Positions 1 to 23,840 of a DNA stretch of 23,840 nt are shown here, one piece after another. Position 1 is the stretch's first letter. Every line of letters begins with the position of its first letter. The notes under the pieces were generated by a model that was not told the origin of the DNA, ran no database searches, and saw only the letters and a program-made list of their open reading frames with translations. The stretch lies in the IMG/VR virus record IMGVR_UViG_3300020371_000057, positions 1 to 23,840 of that record; one strand, written 5' to 3'. The position numbers and the translations under genes were made by a program. Source of the DNA: a virus.

Positions 1-888
1 TGTCAGTGTGACATTTGCAATTCCACTTATGTAGTCACCGGCTGCACCGCCAGAGCTACCGGCTGAACCGGATGAACCATTGCTGACGTTTCCGTTGTAT
101 CCAGAGTTGCCAGTATTGCCTGTACTGCCATTAGCACCAAAGGCGCCACCAGCTCCACCGGCTCCACCAGAGCCGCCATTGCCAGCATTAGTGCCGCCGC
201 CGCCGCCAGAACCTCCGGAGCTGCCTGAGCCTGCAGATTGGTTATATCCTTGACCAACCCCACCAGCTCCACCAGAGCCACCACTACCACCGCTAGTAGA
301 GGTATTTCTAGAACAAGCCTGGCAATCCCACAGCGTAGGAAGGTACCATAATGGATTAATGCAAGACCCTGAACAGTAAGCACCGCCGCCAAAGCGATTG
401 ATACAAGAACTATTACACGCTTGACTTTGACTAGAGCTGTGATGTGCGCTATAATTAGCTGCTCCAAGAGACTGTGCGTAGGAACCATTGCCACCAGTAC
501 CACCATTGCCTCCATTACCACCGCCGCCACCACCGGCATAAATATCGCCGTTGTTTGTAATTGTTACACCGCTAGATGATGCTTGAATAGCGTCTCCACC
601 CGCAGCACCTGCGGCACCACCAGCGCCTTGAATCGCACCGTTATTGATAATAGTCAAAGTGCCACCCATGCCGCTAGGGATCGTCAATGCAGCATTGCTA
701 GTGGAAGTAGCTCCGACGATTATACCAGAATCAATAGTCAAAGTTTTATCTTTACTGTCAGCCCATGAACCACTTTCAGCAGTGTTGAATAAAGTTTGAA
801 GGTCTAAATCGGTGGTGGTGCTAGAAACAGTGAGACTGAGAGCATTATCAACAGCGGCGCCCAATCCAAGATAAATTTGTTGCATCAT
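1..888 (-). CDS. Glycine-rich tail-fibre tip adhesin, 3' end beyond window
   Basis: The frame is open from an ATG ATG at 888 to the left edge, giving 296 residues with no stop. The ATG overlaps the TAA of the fibre gene (TAATG), so the two are probably translationally coupled. Residues 1-110 look like short beta-rich repeats (TLTIINNGAIQG, VTITNNGDIYAG). Residues 85-135 and 199-283 are very rich in Gly, Ser, Asn and Ala (GGGGGGNGGNGGTGG, GGSGGAGGAGG). This resembles the glycine-rich receptor-binding domains of phage adhesins such as T4-type gp38, where such runs form packed polyglycine-II helices. Between the two tracts is an island with six cysteines: C158, C162, C172, C176, C189 and C192. 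The last residues (GDYISGIANVTLT) resemble the usual ends of such proteins, so little may be missing. Host attachment is inferred from gene position and composition. Antisense and other-frame ORFs here are shadows of this low-complexity coding. Confidence 0.8.
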   Translation of the reverse strand, partial: MMQQIYLGLGAAVDNALSLTVSSTTTDLDLQTLFNTAESGSWADSKDKTLTIDSGIIVGATSTSNAALTIPSGMGGTLTIINNGAIQGAGGAAGAAGGDAIQASSSGVTITNNGDIYAGGGGGGNGGNGGTGGNGSYAQSLGAANYSAHHSSSQSQACNSSCINRFGGGAYCSGSCINPLWYLPTLWDCQACSRNTSTSGGSGGSGGAGGVGQGYNQSAGSGSSGGSGGGGGTNAGNGGSGGAGGAGGAFGANGSTGNTGNSGYNGNVSNGSSGSAGSSGGAAGDYISGIANVTLT

Positions 889-3800
889 TAGCTTAGCCCC
901 GAACCGTTAATAATGAACTCGCCAGATGCGGTGCAAGCAATAGTACAAACGCCCAGAGATGCCAATGTCCTGTTGCCAGTAGAACCGTCAGCAGTGTTAT
1001 ACAAAGTGACGTTAGTCCCTTGAGTAATAGTGTTGTCCCCGGATGATCGGTTGAAGATAGTAATCATGTCACCAGCAGAAAACACGTTTGCTGGCACCGT
1101 TATGTTTGCGCCGTTAGTTGCCTCTCTAATTAAGTGACCTGCGTGCGTTGCAGCCAAGGTAAGGGTACTGGCATTGTGATTTGTAATTCCAAGCCGCCTG
1201 ACTGGGCCGATGGAATCTGTAATCGTCCCGCTGACGTGCAGCGTTGAGCTAGGATTTGCTGTGGCAATTCCCACTTTGCCGTCATTCTTGATTGTCATCC
1301 GCGCCTGTGGAGAAGCCGCCCCATCTGCAGTGGTGGAGAACACTAGGCCACCTGGCATGTCATTGCTGCCAGGCGTGCCGTCAATTACTCCTTCAATAGA
1401 AGCAGCTTGAACAAACTCACTACCATCAGCACCGTTGAAAGTAATACGAGCAAGCACATCGTTTGCAGTGACAGCAGTAAAACTTCCTACCGATGTTCCG
1501 CCAGAGCGTGCAAGGTATAAGCCTGCACTGTCGGCATCTGCGCTGCCATTATTAACAATAGAAATAGCGGTCCGATTCGCACCAGCTGCACTTCCTACAC
1601 CCTCTACCTGTAGATCAGGCTTAACGACGCTGCTGTTGTCAAAACCACCACGCGCACTAGACGTCCCAACCAACAACCGCCCAGAGTTGTCTACCTTGAG
1701 GCGCTCAATGCCTTCAGTCGTAACTTTAAAGTGACCATCAGAACCACTGTCAACAACCTCAGCTTCAGTGTTACCTTCGCCAATTTTGTCAGGAGTGCCA
1801 TTTTGGGCAGAAGTAATGCGACCTTGCGCGTCAACAGTAACGGTAGCTAGTGAATAGGTAGCAGCGCTTACACCAGTGTCGGCCAGTTTATCAGCAGTAA
1901 CAGCGTCGTTTGCAATTTTTGTAGTAGTAACTGCATTGGATGCGATTGAAGTAGCTCCGTCACCAGTAGACGTCACGTCACCTGTGTGGTTAGGGTGGCT
2001 GTACGAAGAAGTTTGGTCTACCCAAGACAGTGCACCAGAACCATCTGTTTTAAGAACCTGGTTGGCGTTACCATCAGAGGTCGGCAGTGTCAGCGTATAA
2101 GACGCAGCATCATCGTGTGAAGGTGATTTAATCTTTACACCGTGGCTGTTATCAGAACAGTTGAGCTGCAGTGTACCGTCGTTACCGCCTGCACCTTTAA
2201 CCTCAACAACACCTGTTCCGTTAGGGTTCAGTTTAATGTTGCCGTTAGTAGTGCTGGTATTGATTTCGTTAGCTTTGACATCAAGATTACCACCAAGTTC
2301 TGGTGATGTATCTGATACCACATTAAAGGCAATAGAACCAGAAGGAATGGTAACAAAGCCAAGCTGTTGATCTACTTGGAAAATAGGAGCGTCGGATTGG
2401 TTACCGCCGATCTTGAATTTACCGTTGTGGTCAGTAGTTGCGGTCCAAACTTTACCGTTGTTTAGTTCAGTAATCTGTTTGGTTTCATCCGGCACACCAC
2501 CATTTTCAGGCAGTGCATCGTAGTCCATACCGCTACCAACGTACTCCATCGTGTGACCGCTAGAAGCAATCTGGGAACGAAGGAAGAACTGCACAACATC
2601 GTTTGCAGTAATATCACCGTTAAGACCAAGATTTTGGCTACGGTCGCTGGCGTTAGGACGGCTAATTGTAACCCTATGTCCGTTAGTAGTAACAGTAGAT
2701 GACAGAATAGGATAAGTTACACTATTAACAGTGACCAACATATTGCTAGCTGGTTTAGTGTCATCACCGAACCAACCAGTGCCTTGAGAGATGTTATCAA
2801 CGTCAAACGTAATATCTCCATCAGAAGCGTCTGTTTCAACCTGTCCGCTGAAGATAGGTGCAGTAGACTTACCATCAGCAACCAATGCCTTCTCACCAAA
2901 GTCAGTGGTAGACGCAGCCAGGTTGGCTTGACCACCATTCAGTGCTTTGATGTGGTATTTGTTGAAGAAGGCGTAGCTAGAAGTGCACTGTGCATAGCCG
3001 TTGTTAGTGACAAGGATGCCAGGTCCGTTTAGACCAACGTGTGTATAGCTGTCTGCAACCATCGACCGCAAAGGACTTGTGGTCTTAGGCACAGCACCGT
3101 CAATCAACATACCGCCACCGGTAGGAGCGTTGGTAAGGTCACCAGCTTGTCCACCATCGGGATTGTGTGCATTCAGATCAGAGTTATCAATCTGACTGTC
3201 AGAGAAATTAGTACAGTTCTGAATGTACGGAGACTTGGTAATAAATGCGTTGTTGTAGAACGCAAAGTTCCAACCTTGTCTTACAGGCAAATCACCATCA
3301 AGAGTATTGGTACCTGTATTACCAGCTTGCATACCAGTAAGAGTCAGGTTCTGCACAAACGAACCACTGTTTAGCTCAAACAGAGCATGGTTGCCGTCTG
3401 CATGATCACCCTGTGTTGCAACAGTAGGGTGCACAAGACAGCTACGCAGCGCCATACCAATGATGGACACGTTGCGTCGTTTGATTTGGATAGGTGCAAT
3501 CTCTCGGTAGGTACCTGCAGCAACCATCACGGTCATGCCGTCACCGCCACCGATAACAGGAATCTGCAAACCGGAACCACCGCCAGCGCCGAGGTCAGAG
3601 TCAGCAGCAGACAGGATGTCACCAATCTGATACTCTTGCAACGTAGCGTTAGCAACGTCAGCAACAGTTGTAACTGCACCACTAGCTACAGTAATTGTAG
3701 CGGTCAAACCAGATCCAGTGGTACCGCCAGTCAGCGGAACGTTAGTGTAAGTACCATCAGCATAACCAGATCCTGCAACAAAACCGTCAGATACTACAGT

Positions 3801-5030
3801 AGAAACTGAAATATCTGCGTTGATATCATTGATAGCATCTCTAATAGTTGACTTAGGACCACTAATGCGGTGACCGGTCTTAGTATCGTCACCACCAGTT
3901 TTATCGACATAAATGACTTTATCTTGGGTTCTAAAAGAACCACCAGACGCAACGTCTAGCCAGGCTGTACCGTTCCAGATCTTAAGAGTTTGATCGTCAT
4001 CGTTTTGCAGCCAGGTTTTACCAATCTGATACGAACCTGTTGGAGTGCTGGTTTGCACTAGAGTATCAAAACGCTTAGCAGCAGCACTAGAAGTAAAAAT
4101 ACTATCATCGTCAGTCGTAGGACCATTGTTCTGCTCAGCTAGTGTAATAATATCATCAGCTTTAATACGATCAAGATCAACAGAACCTTGACCAATGCCA
4201 AGTGTGGTTTGACCACCAGAAGTGGTCTTAGTTAGACCAGTGCCATTTACAAGGATGTCCCCTGTAATGGCATCGTCAATCATGTCATTGATCTTTGCCG
4301 TAGTGGCAATGGTCGTGTCATTGTTAGGATTAGACTCACCAGAAATAATGATGTCATCAGCTTTGATCCTATCAAGATCAACACTGCCTTCACCAATACC
4401 AAGAGTTACTTGACCACCTGTGGCAGATTTAGTAAGACCACTATTGTCTACTAGCACATCAGTTTCCATAGCCGTGTCAATCTTAGAATCAACACGGTTG
4501 TCAATAGACGCCGTAGTAGCAATAGTTGTATCGTTATCAGGCCAAGATTCAGCACTTGTGATGGTCTCAGTGCCATCATCAAAGTAGTTATCTTCCAAGT
4601 ACTGTTTGGTAACAGCATCTTGTGCGTTGACAGGATCAGCCATGTCGGTAATCCTGTTACTGTTCAGGTCAACATTAGTGTTAAAGGATCCATTAGTTTG
4701 TGTTACAAACTGATCTTCAATCTCTTGAACAGTATAAAGTGTTTGAAGAAAGTCGTCGTTTAGATCTTGAGCACGGATAGCAGAACCTGCGAAAAATTCA
4801 TTCCGCAGGCTGTTGATGTCCGTATCCCTAAAAATCCTTACGTTACCTACACCAGTAGGAGGTGCAGTAGCAAACGTAATAACAGTAGTATCTATTGTGT
4901 AATCAGTGTCTTGAGTTTTTAGAACTCCGCCGACAGAAACTTTGACGTCGGATTCCTCTAGATATTCAAATTGAATGTTAAAGTTGACAGTGTTATTGTC
5001 ACCATTATGGAATGATTCAGTTGTAGCCAT
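888..5030 (-). CDS. 17: Tail fibre protein, T7 gp17-type N-terminus
   Basis: This 1380-residue virion protein attaches to the tail through its N-terminus and should contact the host. Residues 1-110 match the T7 gp17 N-terminal tail-attachment domain (FEYLEESDVKVSV, then VRIFRDTDI and AGSAIRAQDLNDDFLQ). Residues 163-295 hold two copies of a repeat of about 65 residues. Residues 371-710 read as a right-handed beta-helix of pectin-lyase type (KVIYVDKTGGDD, VMVAAGTYRE, VSIIGMALRS). Residues 910-1075 are typical fibre-shaft repeats (GNIKLNPNGTGVVEVKG, NAVTTTKIANDAVTADKLAD). The C-terminus (ASLGVCTIACTASGEFIINGSG) is beta-rich, and I see no self-cleaving chaperone domain. It is far longer than T7 gp17 (553 residues). 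The gene has its own promoter-like site upstream and is followed without a gap by the glycine-rich adhesin. No strong Shine-Dalgarno precedes the ATG. The fibre identity is secure; the host receptor cannot be inferred. Confidence 0.93.
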   Translation of the reverse strand: MATTESFHNGDNNTVNFNIQFEYLEESDVKVSVGGVLKTQDTDYTIDTTVITFATAPPTGVGNVRIFRDTDINSLRNEFFAGSAIRAQDLNDDFLQTLYTVQEIEDQFVTQTNGSFNTNVDLNSNRITDMADPVNAQDAVTKQYLEDNYFDDGTETITSAESWPDNDTTIATTASIDNRVDSKIDTAMETDVLVDNSGLTKSATGGQVTLGIGEGSVDLDRIKADDIIISGESNPNNDTTIATTAKINDMIDDAITGDILVNGTGLTKTTSGGQTTLGIGQGSVDLDRIKADDIITLAEQNNGPTTDDDSIFTSSAAAKRFDTLVQTSTPTGSYQIGKTWLQNDDDQTLKIWNGTAWLDVASGGSFRTQDKVIYVDKTGGDDTKTGHRISGPKSTIRDAINDINADISVSTVVSDGFVAGSGYADGTYTNVPLTGGTTGSGLTATITVASGAVTTVADVANATLQEYQIGDILSAADSDLGAGGGSGLQIPVIGGGDGMTVMVAAGTYREIAPIQIKRRNVSIIGMALRSCLVHPTVATQGDHADGNHALFELNSGSFVQNLTLTGMQAGNTGTNTLDGDLPVRQGWNFAFYNNAFITKSPYIQNCTNFSDSQIDNSDLNAHNPDGGQAGDLTNAPTGGGMLIDGAVPKTTSPLRSMVADSYTHVGLNGPGILVTNNGYAQCTSSYAFFNKYHIKALNGGQANLAASTTDFGEKALVADGKSTAPIFSGQVETDASDGDITFDVDNISQGTGWFGDDTKPASNMLVTVNSVTYPILSSTVTTNGHRVTISRPNASDRSQNLGLNGDITANDVVQFFLRSQIASSGHTMEYVGSGMDYDALPENGGVPDETKQITELNNGKVWTATTDHNGKFKIGGNQSDAPIFQVDQQLGFVTIPSGSIAFNVVSDTSPELGGNLDVKANEINTSTTNGNIKLNPNGTGVVEVKGAGGNDGTLQLNCSDNSHGVKIKSPSHDDAASYTLTLPTSDGNANQVLKTDGSGALSWVDQTSSYSHPNHTGDVTSTGDGATSIASNAVTTTKIANDAVTADKLADTGVSAATYSLATVTVDAQGRITSAQNGTPDKIGEGNTEAEVVDSGSDGHFKVTTEGIERLKVDNSGRLLVGTSSARGGFDNSSVVKPDLQVEGVGSAAGANRTAISIVNNGSADADSAGLYLARSGGTSVGSFTAVTANDVLARITFNGADGSEFVQAASIEGVIDGTPGSNDMPGGLVFSTTADGAASPQARMTIKNDGKVGIATANPSSTLHVSGTITDSIGPVRRLGITNHNASTLTLAATHAGHLIREATNGANITVPANVFSAGDMITIFNRSSGDNTITQGTNVTLYNTADGSTGNRTLASLGVCTIACTASGEFIINGSGLS
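4146..4544 (-). repeat. Two tandem ~65-residue repeats inside the fibre gene
   Basis: Fibre residues 163-228 and 234-295 are copies of one unit. Both contain NDTTIATTA near the start, SGLTK or TGLTK with GGQ.TLGIG in the middle, and GSVDLDRIKADDII at the end. The copies differ at many positions, so this is an old duplication within the shaft and not a recent DNA repeat. Confidence 0.8.
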
Positions 5031-11691: not shown

Positions 11692-12330
11692 TTAAAGGTC
11701 GAATAATGGATTCATTTGTCCTGCAGTCTGGAAGCCTTGAATCAATCCTTGACCAATAGTCAAAGCTGCGTTGAATGATGGCATTCGTTGTTTACTTGCT
11801 ATTTCAAGGAAGGGTGCTTCTTGAATAGTTCCGAATGCATTCATGTCAGCTTGTCTCAGTTGGTCTGAAGTCTTAGCCATATTACGATCGTGTTGCTTAG
11901 ATGCGCTCTTTAGGCTTTCGACAAATCGTGCATTTTTCTGACCAAAAGCTCCAGCCGTCATCAATGCCTTAGCACGGTCAGCACTAACACCTTGCTGCTC
12001 AGTGGCATTTACATACCCCTCAGCTTCTACCAGCGATTTGAGCATGTCATCTTTACGAAAACTAAAGCCAAGCATCTGTTCGACAAACCTAGCCTGTTCT
12101 TGCTGCCATGCTGTGTTAGCTGCAGAGAAGTTTTGTTCGTACTGCTCTTTTGCATTTTGAACACGACGCTTGTATGCTTGTTGACGGTACTTATTTATAG
12201 TATCCGTTTTGTACTTATTCATTGCGTTTGAATAAGCAACCTGTCCGGCTCGTGCAGCAGCAGCGTTGAATCCACCTATGATGGAAGATGCACCTGATAC
12301 TACGCCAAGACCAATACTTATAGGGTCCAT
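11692..12330 (-). CDS. 14: Internal virion protein B (gp14-like)
   Basis: This 212-residue protein is close to T7 gp14 (196) in length and position. The N-terminus (ISIGLGVVSGASSIIGGFNA) is a hydrophobic, Gly/Ala-rich helix suited to membrane insertion; T7 gp14 is ejected into the outer membrane at the start of infection. The middle, residues 38-110, is a charged helix rich in Gln and Lys (QAYKRRVQNAKEQYEQNF), probably coiled coil. The C-terminus (FNAALTIGQGLIQGFQTAGQ) is again amphipathic. The gene overlaps the end of gene 13 by 13 bases in another frame and stops four bases before the gene 15 ATG. No Shine-Dalgarno is evident, which suggests coupling to gene 13. Confidence 0.9.
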   Translation of the reverse strand: MDPISIGLGVVSGASSIIGGFNAAAARAGQVAYSNAMNKYKTDTINKYRQQAYKRRVQNAKEQYEQNFSAANTAWQQEQARFVEQMLGFSFRKDDMLKSLVEAEGYVNATEQQGVSADRAKALMTAGAFGQKNARFVESLKSASKQHDRNMAKTSDQLRQADMNAFGTIQEAPFLEIASKQRMPSFNAALTIGQGLIQGFQTAGQMNPLFDL

Positions 12331-12770
12331 AGTCTTACGGTTTCTACTTGAAAGGTTTGATTGTATGTATCTGGAAAAATACGTAGAATTTTAAACCCTA
12401 GCATCTTTGCCATGCGTAGGGTTGTAGTTTGTTCAATACGTATGTGGCTCCATAGATACGGTTTATCTTGAGTTCTAAGCCATTTTCTGAAAAATTTGAT
12501 GGCTGCAAGTGGATGGTTTGCCATTTCTTTGCACATATGCAGCCAAAAACAATCTTGATAGAATCCAAATAAACCGAGTGGATTGCCTTCTTCTGTCAAA
12601 GCGATGTAGGATTCACTTGTGGTAACATCTAATGCGATGCCCAAAATAGGATTTACATAATGTTTTCTAATATCTTGATCACCTTCCTTTGTAATGTTGT
12701 TGATTACAAGAGGTATGTCATCGATTGTTGCAGGTCTGATGTGGAAGGGCTGGGTGGATTTGTTAGCCAT
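12318..12770 (-). CDS. 13: gp13-like virion protein with GNAT acetyltransferase fold
   Basis: The protein has 150 residues, against 138 for T7 gp13. It begins IRPATIDDIPLVINNI, the usual first strand and helix of a GNAT acetyltransferase, continues with ESYIALTEEGNPLGLFGFY in the central strands, and ends with TTLRMAKMLGFKILR, which matches the late GNAT helix and strand (R/N-x3-LxxxLGFK). T7 gp13 is needed for virion assembly and is not known to be an enzyme. The acetyl-CoA loop (Q/RxxGxG/A) is not obvious, so the fold may be kept for structure only. The ATG overlaps the gene 12 stop as TAATG. The gp13 role follows from position; the GNAT fold follows from sequence pattern. Confidence 0.82.
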   Translation of the reverse strand: MANKSTQPFHIRPATIDDIPLVINNITKEGDQDIRKHYVNPILGIALDVTTSESYIALTEEGNPLGLFGFYQDCFWLHMCKEMANHPLAAIKFFRKWLRTQDKPYLWSHIRIEQTTTLRMAKMLGFKILRIFPDTYNQTFQVETVRLWTL

Positions 12771-21090: not shown

Positions 21091-21282
21091 TTAAAGTTCC
21101 TCGTTTTGAATCCGTGAGTTGATCCAGTCCACAACACTACGCTGACCAGCTTGATACATGATCGTATTGATCTGTGCATCAGGACCGGGATTGGTCAGCG
21201 GGAAACGATCCTCTAGTTCGTTGACCAAAGCATCAACAGTAAGCCCAAGATTAAGCGTACTGTGGGAGGTCTGTATTTGCAT
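21091..21282 (-). CDS. 63-residue conserved hypothetical protein before the portal cluster
   Basis: I start at the ATG at 21282 (MQIQTSHSTLNLGL). The frame is open to 21345, but the upstream part lies wholly within the reductase small-subunit gene. The body reads VDALVNELEDRFPLTNPGPD and then MYQAGQRSVVDWINSRIQNE. This pattern (LVxELExRFP, then a GQRSVVxW helix) recurs in small proteins next to the portal gene of T7-like phages; their job is unknown. It overlaps the small-subunit gene by 32 bases and ends two bases before the next ATG. Acidic and helical, with no cysteine. Confidence 0.7.
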   Translation of the reverse strand: MQIQTSHSTLNLGLTVDALVNELEDRFPLTNPGPDAQINTIMYQAGQRSVVDWINSRIQNEEL

Positions 21283-21967
21283 GTTCAAAGAAAGCTGGAA
21301 CACGTGATGCTTTTGTAAAGGACAGCTCAGGAGCTTTGCCCTCATACATCAGACGATCACTAGAATCCATCCAAAATTTTTTGTTCAGATGTTTGACCGG
21401 GTTGCTCGCAGACAAAGGCTGGAGCACCCAGCTCATAGTTGCCTTCCTGAGATTATCAAGAGAAGGACTGATGTTATACCCCAGCTCGCTATGAACCAGA
21501 CTATTGGTAGCCACATGGATTTGTTCATCTCTAGAAATGTCAGCACTGACAGTTCTCATGCCAGCGTCACCAAGACTGCGAAAGAGTGGTAGAAGAACGA
21601 AGAAAATTGCACGCTCGGCAACCATCGCCTTGGTAATCGTGTGATCTTTATGCGAAGTCCAAGCTTCACGAAGCCGAAGGGCTTCAGCCTCAGCCTTCTC
21701 ATCAACCCCGTGAGCTGTGGCAATGAAACCAAGTGCGAGGTCATGTTTTTCTTCATCCTTGACGTTGGACACAAGTAATTCACGCGCCAACTCTGGTACT
21801 TCAGTGGCAAGAGCTTCATTGATAAAATCTCCCACAGGCAGTTCCATGTGACGCAAGGCAAGGGCACGTTTCAATACATCGTGTGCCCCTTCCTTGATCG
21901 TACCAGCAGTTGTTTGTACTGGTGTCCATGTTCTTTTTCGTTCGAGTAGTTTTTGATACGGGTTCAT
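21251..21967 (-). CDS. nrdB: Ribonucleotide reductase small subunit (class I beta), tyrosine-less
   Basis: The 238-residue protein is ferritin-like and should supply the radical for the large subunit encoded just upstream. The metal-ligand pattern of class I beta proteins is present: E72xxH75, E118 (AERAIFF) and E148xxH151 (SRDEQIH); the helix A acid is probably E42. In E. coli NrdB the radical Tyr122 is four residues after the first histidine; here that residue is Leu79. The C-terminus (RVPAFFEHANTDLPQYA) has Tyr237, placed like the transfer Tyr356 near the tail that docks on alpha. It is much shorter than NrdB (376). The ATG overlaps the large-subunit stop as ATGA. A non-reductase diiron oxidase is the alternative, but the gene pairing argues against it. 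Confidence 0.82.
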   Translation of the reverse strand: MNPYQKLLERKRTWTPVQTTAGTIKEGAHDVLKRALALRHMELPVGDFINEALATEVPELARELLVSNVKDEEKHDLALGFIATAHGVDEKAEAEALRLREAWTSHKDHTITKAMVAERAIFFVLLPLFRSLGDAGMRTVSADISRDEQIHVATNSLVHSELGYNISPSLDNLRKATMSWVLQPLSASNPVKHLNKKFWMDSSDRLMYEGKAPELSFTKASRVPAFFEHANTDLPQYA

Positions 21968-23331
21968 TCTTGACAGTCGCAGGTTTGTTCTTCATTAAGA
22001 ATGTCTGCAAGGTACTGGTCAACGTCATCTTGAAGTGCAGCGTAAACATCTGACTTATCTTGAGTGTCTCCCATAACTTGTAGACTGTAGTAAAGGGAGG
22101 TTTGCGGAGATTCCAACCACTCTTCGATAAAGGCTTCGTCATATGTAACGACATCACTCCAACTGTTGAAGCTATACCCGTGAAGAAGTCCCGTGCGGTC
22201 GAGCATGGTCATGATGCCATCGGCAACACGTTTGTAGTTTGCCCAACCAACTTCTGATGCGATTTCTACATCGCCATAATTATATGTTTCGACACCAAAG
22301 GTGCCACTATCTCTATCTACCGTGCCACCGACAGGCGGCGCGATTTCTGGTGTGCAAGTATAACCATCCAGATCCTTGCTTCGATAACTGCAGGAGGCAG
22401 TGGGTGCGATAGCAAAGGCTCGAACCATATTATGAGACCTAGCCATTGCGGCGGCAGACTCAATACCAACGGCAAACTTAGTGACCAGCTCATAGGCTGG
22501 TGTGCGTACCACTTCGCCTGAATTGTATTGGTCCAGAGCAATGCCGAATTGCTCATAAGTTACTCCGTACCGCCGTAGGAGATTTGCCAGTCCCAACATA
22601 CCGAGTCCGACTTGTCGATCGGTTTCGGGCGGGAGATACTCTCCTGAATCGCCAACGCCAGTTTTAGCATGGAGGGTACACAACTCCGACATGCCCTGAA
22701 CAAAAGCTCCTGGGATTTCGTCGAACTTACAGGCACCAAGATTGACGTGCTGCAGCAAGCAAGTTCCTCGTGAGGGCAGGTACACTTCCAGGCACACGTT
22801 ACCTCGGATCCGGTTTCCTTCGTTGTCATACTTTACTTTGTTGAGCCAGATGTCTCCAGCTTTGATGGATTGAAGAAGTTGTTCCTTGAACGTGCACGAC
22901 CGCCACCAACCTTCAGTAATGTTGATGCATCGTTTGACCCATGGCAGCTCATGACGAGGTGTTTCAATAAACTCAAGGGCATCAGCGTGACAAAGATCAA
23001 GGTGGCACACAACAGCACCGTTTTTATACACGCCGCCGCGACGGAGGATCTCATTTAGTGTCGAGTAGATTTTTGCGAAAGAAACTGGTCCAGATGCAAC
23101 CAATCCTTTACCATTTTCTGAACCTTTGGGTCGCAGTTCCGACAAGTGGACCGCGCAACCTGCTCCGAAACGTAAAGCATGTGATACAAATCTCCAGCTT
23201 GCTTCGATTCCATCTGGACCCTCCATAGAATCCTGGACAACAAATACCGTGCACGAAACCGGCAAGCGGGACGTTGGATCATCCATCCAAGATTGGACAC
23301 GTCCGGTGCGAGAAATTACTGAGGTGGTCAT
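21964..23331 (-). CDS. nrdA: Ribonucleotide reductase large subunit (class I alpha, compact)
   Basis: This 455-residue enzyme reduces ribonucleotides to deoxynucleotides in the host cytoplasm. The finger-loop motif NxCxE is N178, C180 (thiyl radical) and E182. The active-site redox pair is probably C27 and C201. The loop IAPTASCSY (308-316) matches the phosphate-binding APTxxxS block. Near the end Y414 and Y415 (TSLYYSLQ) match the E. coli Tyr730-Tyr731 radical path, and C451/C453 are placed like the swinging-arm cysteines. The Tyr pair and the adjacent beta gene mark it as class I. There is no ATP-cone domain, and the chain is far shorter than E. coli NrdA (761), so overall activity control is probably absent. 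The ATG overlaps the mazG-like stop (ATGA). Confidence 0.92.
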   Translation of the reverse strand: MTTSVISRTGRVQSWMDDPTSRLPVSCTVFVVQDSMEGPDGIEASWRFVSHALRFGAGCAVHLSELRPKGSENGKGLVASGPVSFAKIYSTLNEILRRGGVYKNGAVVCHLDLCHADALEFIETPRHELPWVKRCINITEGWWRSCTFKEQLLQSIKAGDIWLNKVKYDNEGNRIRGNVCLEVYLPSRGTCLLQHVNLGACKFDEIPGAFVQGMSELCTLHAKTGVGDSGEYLPPETDRQVGLGMLGLANLLRRYGVTYEQFGIALDQYNSGEVVRTPAYELVTKFAVGIESAAAMARSHNMVRAFAIAPTASCSYRSKDLDGYTCTPEIAPPVGGTVDRDSGTFGVETYNYGDVEIASEVGWANYKRVADGIMTMLDRTGLLHGYSFNSWSDVVTYDEAFIEEWLESPQTSLYYSLQVMGDTQDKSDVYAALQDDVDQYLADILNEEQTCDCQE

Positions 23332-23699
23332 TCGATAATCAGATCAAGAAGATGTGGTTCTTTATAGTTAGGTCCCTTCAGGACTTTGCCGTCTGCACGG
23401 TAGATAGGTTTGCCGTTAGCATCCAACTTAGACATGTTGGATTCGTGGACCCGACGCATGGCTTCGTCAAGGTCCCACTCCTGTGACGCAGCAAACTGGT
23501 AGCAAACGTACACAAGGTCTGCTAGTTCTTTGAGCTGGTCACAATCATCTTTCATGTGGTAAGCCTCATGAAACTCTGACCATTCCTCATCGATCAAAGC
23601 TTTCTGCACGCCTCTTTCCGCTACCCCAGTCATCAACATATACGCTGAGCGGAACTGTTCGGCCATCGTCATGAGGCTGCGATGAATGTAGGAGTTCAT
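23328..23699 (-). CDS. mazG: MazG-like nucleotide pyrophosphohydrolase
   Basis: The protein has 123 residues from the ATG at 23699. It shows the all-alpha NTP pyrophosphohydrolase pattern: DEEWSEFHEAY (ExxE-type metal ligands) followed by ELADLVYVCY (ExxD). The end, HESNMSKLDANGKPIYRADG then KVLKGPNY, is typical of phage MazG-like and phosphoribosyl-ATP-pyrophosphatase-like proteins. It may hydrolyse nucleotides or (p)ppGpp-like alarmones, which would suit the neighbouring reductase. The frame is open upstream to 23786, but that part lies over the conserved DUF3310 domain in another frame and looks non-coding. ATGs at 23672 and 23666 are further candidates, and none has a good Shine-Dalgarno. 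The stop overlaps the reductase ATG. Confidence 0.82.
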   Translation of the reverse strand: MNSYIHRSLMTMAEQFRSAYMLMTGVAERGVQKALIDEEWSEFHEAYHMKDDCDQLKELADLVYVCYQFAASQEWDLDEAMRRVHESNMSKLDANGKPIYRADGKVLKGPNYKEPHLLDLIIE

Positions 23700-23840
23700 T
23701 TTCAAGGTAGTGGATAGCTTTTTTAAGGTCTTGAGTCTTTGTGTCAGGACTCTTGTAACCGGCTCGGCAAATATATTTAATAGCATTGCCGAGATGATAG
23801 TTGAGGTCTTGGTCTCTAATAAAATCCCAAACTTCTATTG
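23587..23840 (-). CDS. DUF3310 protein, C-terminal part (5' end outside window)
   Basis: The frame enters from the right edge (first whole codon ending at 23838) and reads 83 residues to a TGA at 23587-23589. The segment VWDFIRDQDLNYHLGNAIKY followed by ICRAGYKS, and then DLKKAIHYLENEL, is the DUF3310 signature (LGNAIKYIxRAG...DLKKAxxYL) found widely in phages; databases sometimes label it nucleotide kinase-like, but the biochemical role is unsettled to me. After ENELL the tail of about 33 residues is charged and not recognisably conserved, and it overlaps the mazG-like gene in another frame. The location next to nucleotide-metabolism genes fits a nucleotide role by inference. Confidence 0.8.
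   Translation of the reverse strand, partial: IEVWDFIRDQDLNYHLGNAIKYICRAGYKSPDTKTQDLKKAIHYLENELLHSSQPHDDGRTVPLSVYVDDWGSGKRRAESFDR

Follow-up and report, generated by a model that had tools for sequence, protein, structure and literature searches.

A probable gp38-class tip adhesin encoded next to the gp17-type fibre of a T7-like cyanophage

The proteins by which marine T7-like cyanophages recognize their hosts are poorly defined. We analyzed a virus record of 23,840 bases (the window, taken at its whole length), at one edge of which a glycine-rich reading frame adjoins a tail fibre gene, and asked what this frame encodes, whether its product could recognize the host, and how it might be held on the virion. 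The genes in question are as follows:

888..5030, minus strand: T7 gp17-type tail fibre gene, 1380 aa (from PF03906)
886..890, minus strand: TAATG overlap of the fibre stop and the adhesin start (from the sequence)
1..888, minus strand: gene for a putative tip adhesin with a gp38-like polyglycine sandwich, 296 of its 306 codons (from the open reading frame, phrog_10745, the predicted fold and the completion by contig L269)

The reading frame, its completed end and the genome around it

The list of open reading frames gives the adhesin as a 296-codon frame on the minus strand (1-888), with its ATG at 888-886, running off the window edge. The original prediction that it starts on the stop codon of a gp17-type fibre held in both respects: the A of the ATG is also the last base of the fibre TAA (890-888), producing TAATG, and the N-terminal domain Phage_T7_tail (PF03906) was found at fibre residues 8-148 (1.7e-24). 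This junction suggests translational coupling of fibre and adhesin. An identical TAATG overlap occurs in contigs L225 and L231-L238 and in Sphaerotilus phage vB_SnaP-R1.

The predicted glycine-rich tracts were also present. Glycine accounts for 76 of the 296 residues (26%), followed by Ser (44), Ala (35) and Asn (25), and rises to 37-41% in residues 81-140 and 196-296. Of 5000 shuffles that preserved the composition, 53 had as many residues in GG runs as the adhesin, which thus exceeds 99% of them. Clustering of the tracts beyond what composition predicts is therefore modest; conservation is the stronger evidence. Relatives are encoded in about 80 viral contigs, and an alignment of 22 family sequences has 41 invariant columns, mainly Gly. 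A stop-free frame appeared in 0 of 2000 base shuffles.

The strong Gly/Ser/Ala bias, together with the incompleteness of the frame within the window, would suit a low-complexity by-product or a non-functional remnant. The missing end was found by an exact search with window bases 1-39, which returned one contig, L269 (IMGVR_UViG_3300020371_000139, 13,931 bases). Over its first 77 bases this contig is identical to the window end, with 0 mismatches. L269 and the window are probably adjoining contigs of one or nearly identical genomes, with which the 77-base overlap fits. L269 adds 10 codons (DNGNVAGTTS) and a stop, giving 306 aa in total, and the end resembles those of complete relatives such as L005 (...NNGAVAGGTV). 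The original prediction had held that an unrelated enzyme domain in the sequence to the left would speak against an adhesin; the continuation in L269 contained no further domain and no enzyme, and an enzyme domain in the missing part was rejected, as the frame stops after the 10 codons. The intact stop, the high-confidence fold described below, and the conservation of the gene, with its invariant Gly columns, across about 80 contigs and some isolates all stand against a remnant. Conservation and the completed frame refute that reading, whose probability we regard as negligible.

The capsid protein of the window is nearest those of Synechococcus podoviruses (94% to S-RIP2 and KBS-P-1A), in agreement with the T7-like cyanophage identity proposed for this DNA. 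L269 encodes a terminase of the T7 type and a T7-like RNA polymerase, the latter nearest those of the uncultured phage MedDCM-OCT-S28-C3 and the Synechococcus phages S-SBP1, S-RIP2 and KBS-P-1A. Judged by these nearest relatives, the window would be part of a T7-like cyanophage genome, presumably with marine Synechococcus-type hosts; the isolates nearest to it infect Synechococcus WH7803. In podovirus contigs L016 and L040, gp16, a gp17-type fibre and a member of the adhesin family follow in this order. Two further regions of the window, both on the minus strand, were assigned by eye: a 150-aa product at 12318-12770, between the gp12-like tail tube and gp14-like genes, looks like a GNAT-type acetyltransferase, and overlapping glutaredoxin-, nrdB-, nrdA- and mazG-like genes at 21091-23786 have the order seen in other T7-like cyanophages.

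Predicted fold of the adhesin and its variable insert

Downstream of its N-terminal peptide, the adhesin was divided into three parts:

487..849, minus strand: predicted beta-helix with a capping helix and the first glycine-rich motifs, residues 14-134 (from AlphaFold2 pLDDT and VIA-align to 6f45_D)
295..486, minus strand: 64-residue variable Cys-rich insert at the gp38 loop B position, residues 135-198 (from the S16 gp38 alignment, Cys positions and identity)
1..294, minus strand: predicted second glycine-rich sandwich block and final beta-helix strand, residues 199-296 (from alignments and the model)

The AlphaFold2 model, made from 22 alignment rows, had a mean pLDDT of 76.5. In ten-residue blocks, residues 21-130 reached 85-97 over most of their length; residues 140-195 were poorly modelled, as was the N-terminal peptide (below 50 at residues 1-7 and 9-13). 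A Foldseek search of the PDB with this model gave two credible matches, the receptor-binding domain of PP01 gp38 (7.8e-5) and S16 gp38 (5.9e-3). VIA-align placed the same two proteins on top, S16 gp38 (6f45_D) with Z 17.0 over 178 residues at 2.8 A and PP01 gp38 with Z 16.8, the next chain having Z 4.1. Among predicted viral structures (BFVD), the best match was a Rhizobium phage RL2RES protein annotated as a gp38-domain protein (1.3e-17). The proposed likeness to the polyglycine tip adhesins of T4-type phages was thereby upheld, and the model supports a beta-helix with a predicted polyglycine (PGII) sandwich of the gp38 class. In S16 gp38, glycine motifs 1-2 and 3-10 project from two beta-helix turns, with variable loops between them (PMC6851490), and in the alignment with this protein the window adhesin has its parts in the same order.

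At the sequence level, the phrog_10745 profile matched residues 16-168 (3.7e-34). Pfam GP38 (PF05268) gave no match, nor did Gp38_N or Gly_rich_2 (PF21722) at E up to 1; the Gp38_N profile does match S16 gp38. A profile comparison with S16 gp38 was weak (31 columns, 22% probability), and these columns fall at the expected place, GGDAI..VTITNNGDIYAGGGGGG in the window against GGDCI..LRINNQGWICGGGGGG; percent identity across long Gly tracts means little, as such tracts align easily. A sequence bridge from the window family to GP38 is provided by the SnaP-R1 homologue, which is aligned in the same set and clears the Pfam GP38 cutoff (25.9 versus 25 bits). Neither the whole window adhesin nor its beta-helix part found a match among isolate phages by tblastn, probably owing in part to masking of the Gly tracts; the queries that worked were the relative from L016 and the fibre-end domain. 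A PDB sequence search with the family profile returned low-complexity matches only. The prion-related Pfam family PRNT scored 15.8 bits, below its cutoff of 27, and a collagen-like trimer was rejected, no regular GXY repeats being seen in the adhesin.

The insert aligns with the S16 gp38 loop FRVGHTEA, the place of loop B in PP01, where residues 158-170 are essential for adsorption (PMC12892980). Its length ranges from 26 to 182 residues in the family, and its identity to the window is 0.16, versus 0.63-0.71 for the flanking Gly motifs. All six Cys of the adhesin lie within it (158, 162, 172, 176, 189 and 192), and in several relatives all of their 6-8 Cys are likewise confined to the insert. 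By analogy with loop B, the insert is a candidate receptor-binding knob and the likely site of host contact; that it is stabilized by disulphides or metal is a guess.

These features bear on a second reading of the gene, namely, that it encodes a fibre assembly chaperone like T4 gp38 or Tfa, released before maturation. The gene directly 3' of a fibre gene often encodes a chaperone, T4 gp38 is a released chaperone encoded at the same gene position (PMC12892980), and the roles of chaperone and adhesin could coincide. The fold, however, is that of the S16/PP01 tip adhesin, and a variable insert between conserved flanks suits receptor binding. Pfam and PHROG chaperone profiles gave 0 matches for the window adhesin, but chaperones are a diverse group. 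The next gene (L269:144-593, 149 aa) also matches no known chaperone family; its only match was phrog_9114 (function unknown, 2.7e-4), and a role as a fibre assembly helper is conceivable and unsupported. We consider a chaperone very unlikely.

The fibre end and the adhesin N-terminus

If the adhesin sits on the fibre, two short elements that face each other across the TAATG junction could hold it there:

891..1163, minus strand: predicted gp9/XD1-like fibre-end domain ("socket"), last 91 aa of the fibre (from AlphaFold2, structure matches and the adhesin-type genes downstream of it elsewhere)
850..888, minus strand: N-terminal "plug" MMQQIYLGLGAAV, adhesin residues 1-13, putative fibre-docking element (from motif counts)

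S16 gp38 grips its fibre trimer by three helices with one Trp each (PMC6851490). The window adhesin has about 15 residues ahead of its first strand and Trp only at positions 42, 181 and 187. With Gp38_N absent and the N-terminus short and devoid of such Trp, the gp38 attachment domain is lacking.

The last 91 residues of the fibre were modelled with pLDDT 97 and resemble T4 gp9 residues 75-166 (Z 8.4) and CBA120 TSP4 residues 91-183 (Z 8.2), values that, being near 8, are borderline by the structure tool's own note, as well as the end of the Pa223 capsid spike (Z 10.6). The top 11 rows of this search (Z 6.8-10.6) were nearly all phage tail or spike proteins, and the rest had Z of 4.1 or less. 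Since the matched TSP4 range precedes the XD1-XD2 linker at 179-188 (PMC8825819), the fibre end is likened to XD1. For XD1 in TSP4, gp9 and gp10, a lack of binding to trimeric partners has been reported, the chain passing through the domain (PMC8825819). The predicted fold is shared, but the domain is internal in T4 gp9 and CBA120 TSP4 and terminal in the window fibre; as the chain ends there, this objection does not carry over directly.

We surveyed the genes downstream of this domain by tblastn with six fibre ends, across the loci plus four records from isolates or single cells. All 29 distinct N-termini found there start -4 to +14 nt from the fibre stop. The motif M-x(1-3)-Q-x(0-1)-[MILA]-[LIMAY] was present in 22 of them, versus 4 of 453 starts located after other genes and taken as controls. 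As the test was post hoc and relatedness is common among the sequences, the nominal P of 4e-28 is too strong. The proteins that follow the socket vary: they are gp38-like (window, L231-L238 and SnaP-R1), Gly_rich_2 (L250, L248 and L243), a laminin-G protein (S-B28, whose peptide departs from the motif) or an SBBP beta-propeller (L223). A DUF7483 protein in L220 may belong with these, judged by its start, which is the plug peptide. Within the gp38-like family at the loci surveyed, 7 of 7 members with a plug come directly after a socket, versus 0 of 41 with other N-termini; the members without a plug carry an 'SGxISLSDI' module or GxW repeats. At the DNA level, a strict pattern for the plug, demanding Leu at one position, gave no match, and a relaxed one gave 10 stretches, several of them unrelated. 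On these sequence patterns, the linkage of fibre-end domain and peptide looks like an exchangeable socket and plug.

Comparison of fibres is consistent with this. The window fibre is 75.6% identical to that of S-SBP1 and 80.5% to that of MedDCM S45-C4 over the matched parts, the matches stopping at residues 1255 and 923, respectively, and both phages have other genes downstream of the fibre than the window. In L082 the fibre N-terminus is 99% identical to that of the window, and its end and the downstream genes differ. Closely related shafts with different ends and downstream genes fit tip swapping at the junction. A wider proposition is that a gp9/XD1-like socket and a plug of 10-15 residues let adhesins of unrelated structure, from the polyglycine sandwich and Gly_rich_2 to the beta-propeller, the laminin-G lectin and DUF7483, replace one another through recombination where stop and start are coupled, in T7-like phages as well as in siphoviruses and T4-like phages, with the same core bearing other attachment modules where there is no socket. 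We hold the case for so general a system to be evenly balanced.

Other arrangements were seen among the relatives. The adhesins of RHEph27 (L259:8878-9906) and RHph_I46 (L260:7673-8701) have three GxW repeats at the N-terminus, VKQAGAW, VNQSGVW and VKNAGAW in RHEph27, which recall the three Trp of S16 gp38 fitting pockets of a threefold fibre and may form a pseudo-threefold attachment module. In L002, L004, L016, L050 and others, the first 60-80 residues read 'SGxISLSDI...ISLSEYY...SGxISLSDFY', apparently three repeats, and this type of module was found only where the fibre-end domain is absent. L239:5001-6740 holds three small tandem genes in which fibre-end domains are successively followed by coupled starts, the last product being Gly-rich. 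In L068:1171-7062, one protein of 1959 residues ends in the same polyglycine domain, so a separate adhesin can be joined to a long fibre-like protein.

The survey also bears on where the adhesin is mounted. It could be a receptor-binding protein that is expressed together with the fibre but carried at another site of the virion, perhaps on a different short fibre protein. Contigs L231-L238 encode the terminal domain as a small gene of its own (141-147 aa in the two that were read), several genes past the long fibre, so that the adhesin pairs with the gene immediately before it, which need not be the main fibre. The long fibres of the window, L227 and SnaP-R1, however, themselves end in this domain, and we consider mounting elsewhere very unlikely.

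With these alternatives weighed, it is probable that the adhesin is a fibre-tip receptor-binding protein of the gp38 polyglycine-sandwich class, presumably docked on the gp17-type fibre of a T7-like cyanophage. We envisage that the fibre, presumably a trimer, is anchored at the short tail through its T7-type N-terminus and that its last 91 residues fold as the gp9/XD1-like domain. The adhesin would be made by a coupled translational restart at TAATG and dock on that domain through its N-terminal peptide, and the mature virion would carry one or three copies per fibre. The beta-helix would then extend the fibre axis, the glycine-rich strands would build the lattice, and the Cys-rich insert at the loop B position would form the far end, projecting to the host and touching its surface, probably at a Synechococcus surface receptor.

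Relation to known adhesin systems

The analysis names a concrete receptor-binding candidate for a Synechococcus podovirus lineage and a probable function for phrog_10745 and for "hypothetical" genes that follow fibres in Autographiviridae isolates; it also suggests a socket-and-plug rule by which phages could exchange tips. Glycine-rich gp38-like adhesins have been described in haloarchaeal tailed viruses (PMC8651126), and the genes listed for marine metaviromic islands include gp38 adhesins (PMC3909814). A literature search, with subscription papers mostly outside its scope, found no paper describing a gp38-like adhesin in a T7-like phage. At the fibre tip of Pam3, gp24 forms a glycine-rich lattice (PMC9608196); this Gly_rich_2 protein (PF21722) shares the lattice with the window adhesin but is trimeric, with a TNF-like middle domain in place of the beta-helix.

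With gp38 of the T2/S16/PP01-type Tevenvirinae (PDB 6F45 and 9V85), the window adhesin shares a gene placed right after the distal fibre, a predicted beta-helix with a polyglycine sandwich, and variable distal loops. The gp38 adhesins cap a fibre trimer as a single copy in the virion and set the host range. The window adhesin differs from them in lacking Gp38_N, in having the 64-residue Cys-rich insert for loop B and in belonging to a T7-like genome. It likely works like gp38; missing the attachment domain, it falls short of full membership in the T-even gp38 family, and it is apparently attached via an exchangeable short connector, unlike the usual gp38. The architecture was originally described as best known from the long fibres of myoviruses; it is not confined to them, as two T7-like isolates have it, with adhesins annotated "hypothetical" in both. 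Rhizobium phage RHEph27 (Autographiviridae) encodes the same core family in the same place after a T7-type fibre, its protein matching phrog_10745 over the full length (9e-74), but the fibre is short and the adhesin begins with a 45-residue N-terminus bearing the three GxW repeats. In Sphaerotilus phage vB_SnaP-R1 (Autographiviridae, Krylovirinae), gp42-gp43 have, as in the window, the terminal domain, TAATG, a plug-type N-terminus and a GP38-class adhesin; unlike the window, this phage lacks the long variable insert and has a freshwater beta-proteobacterial host.
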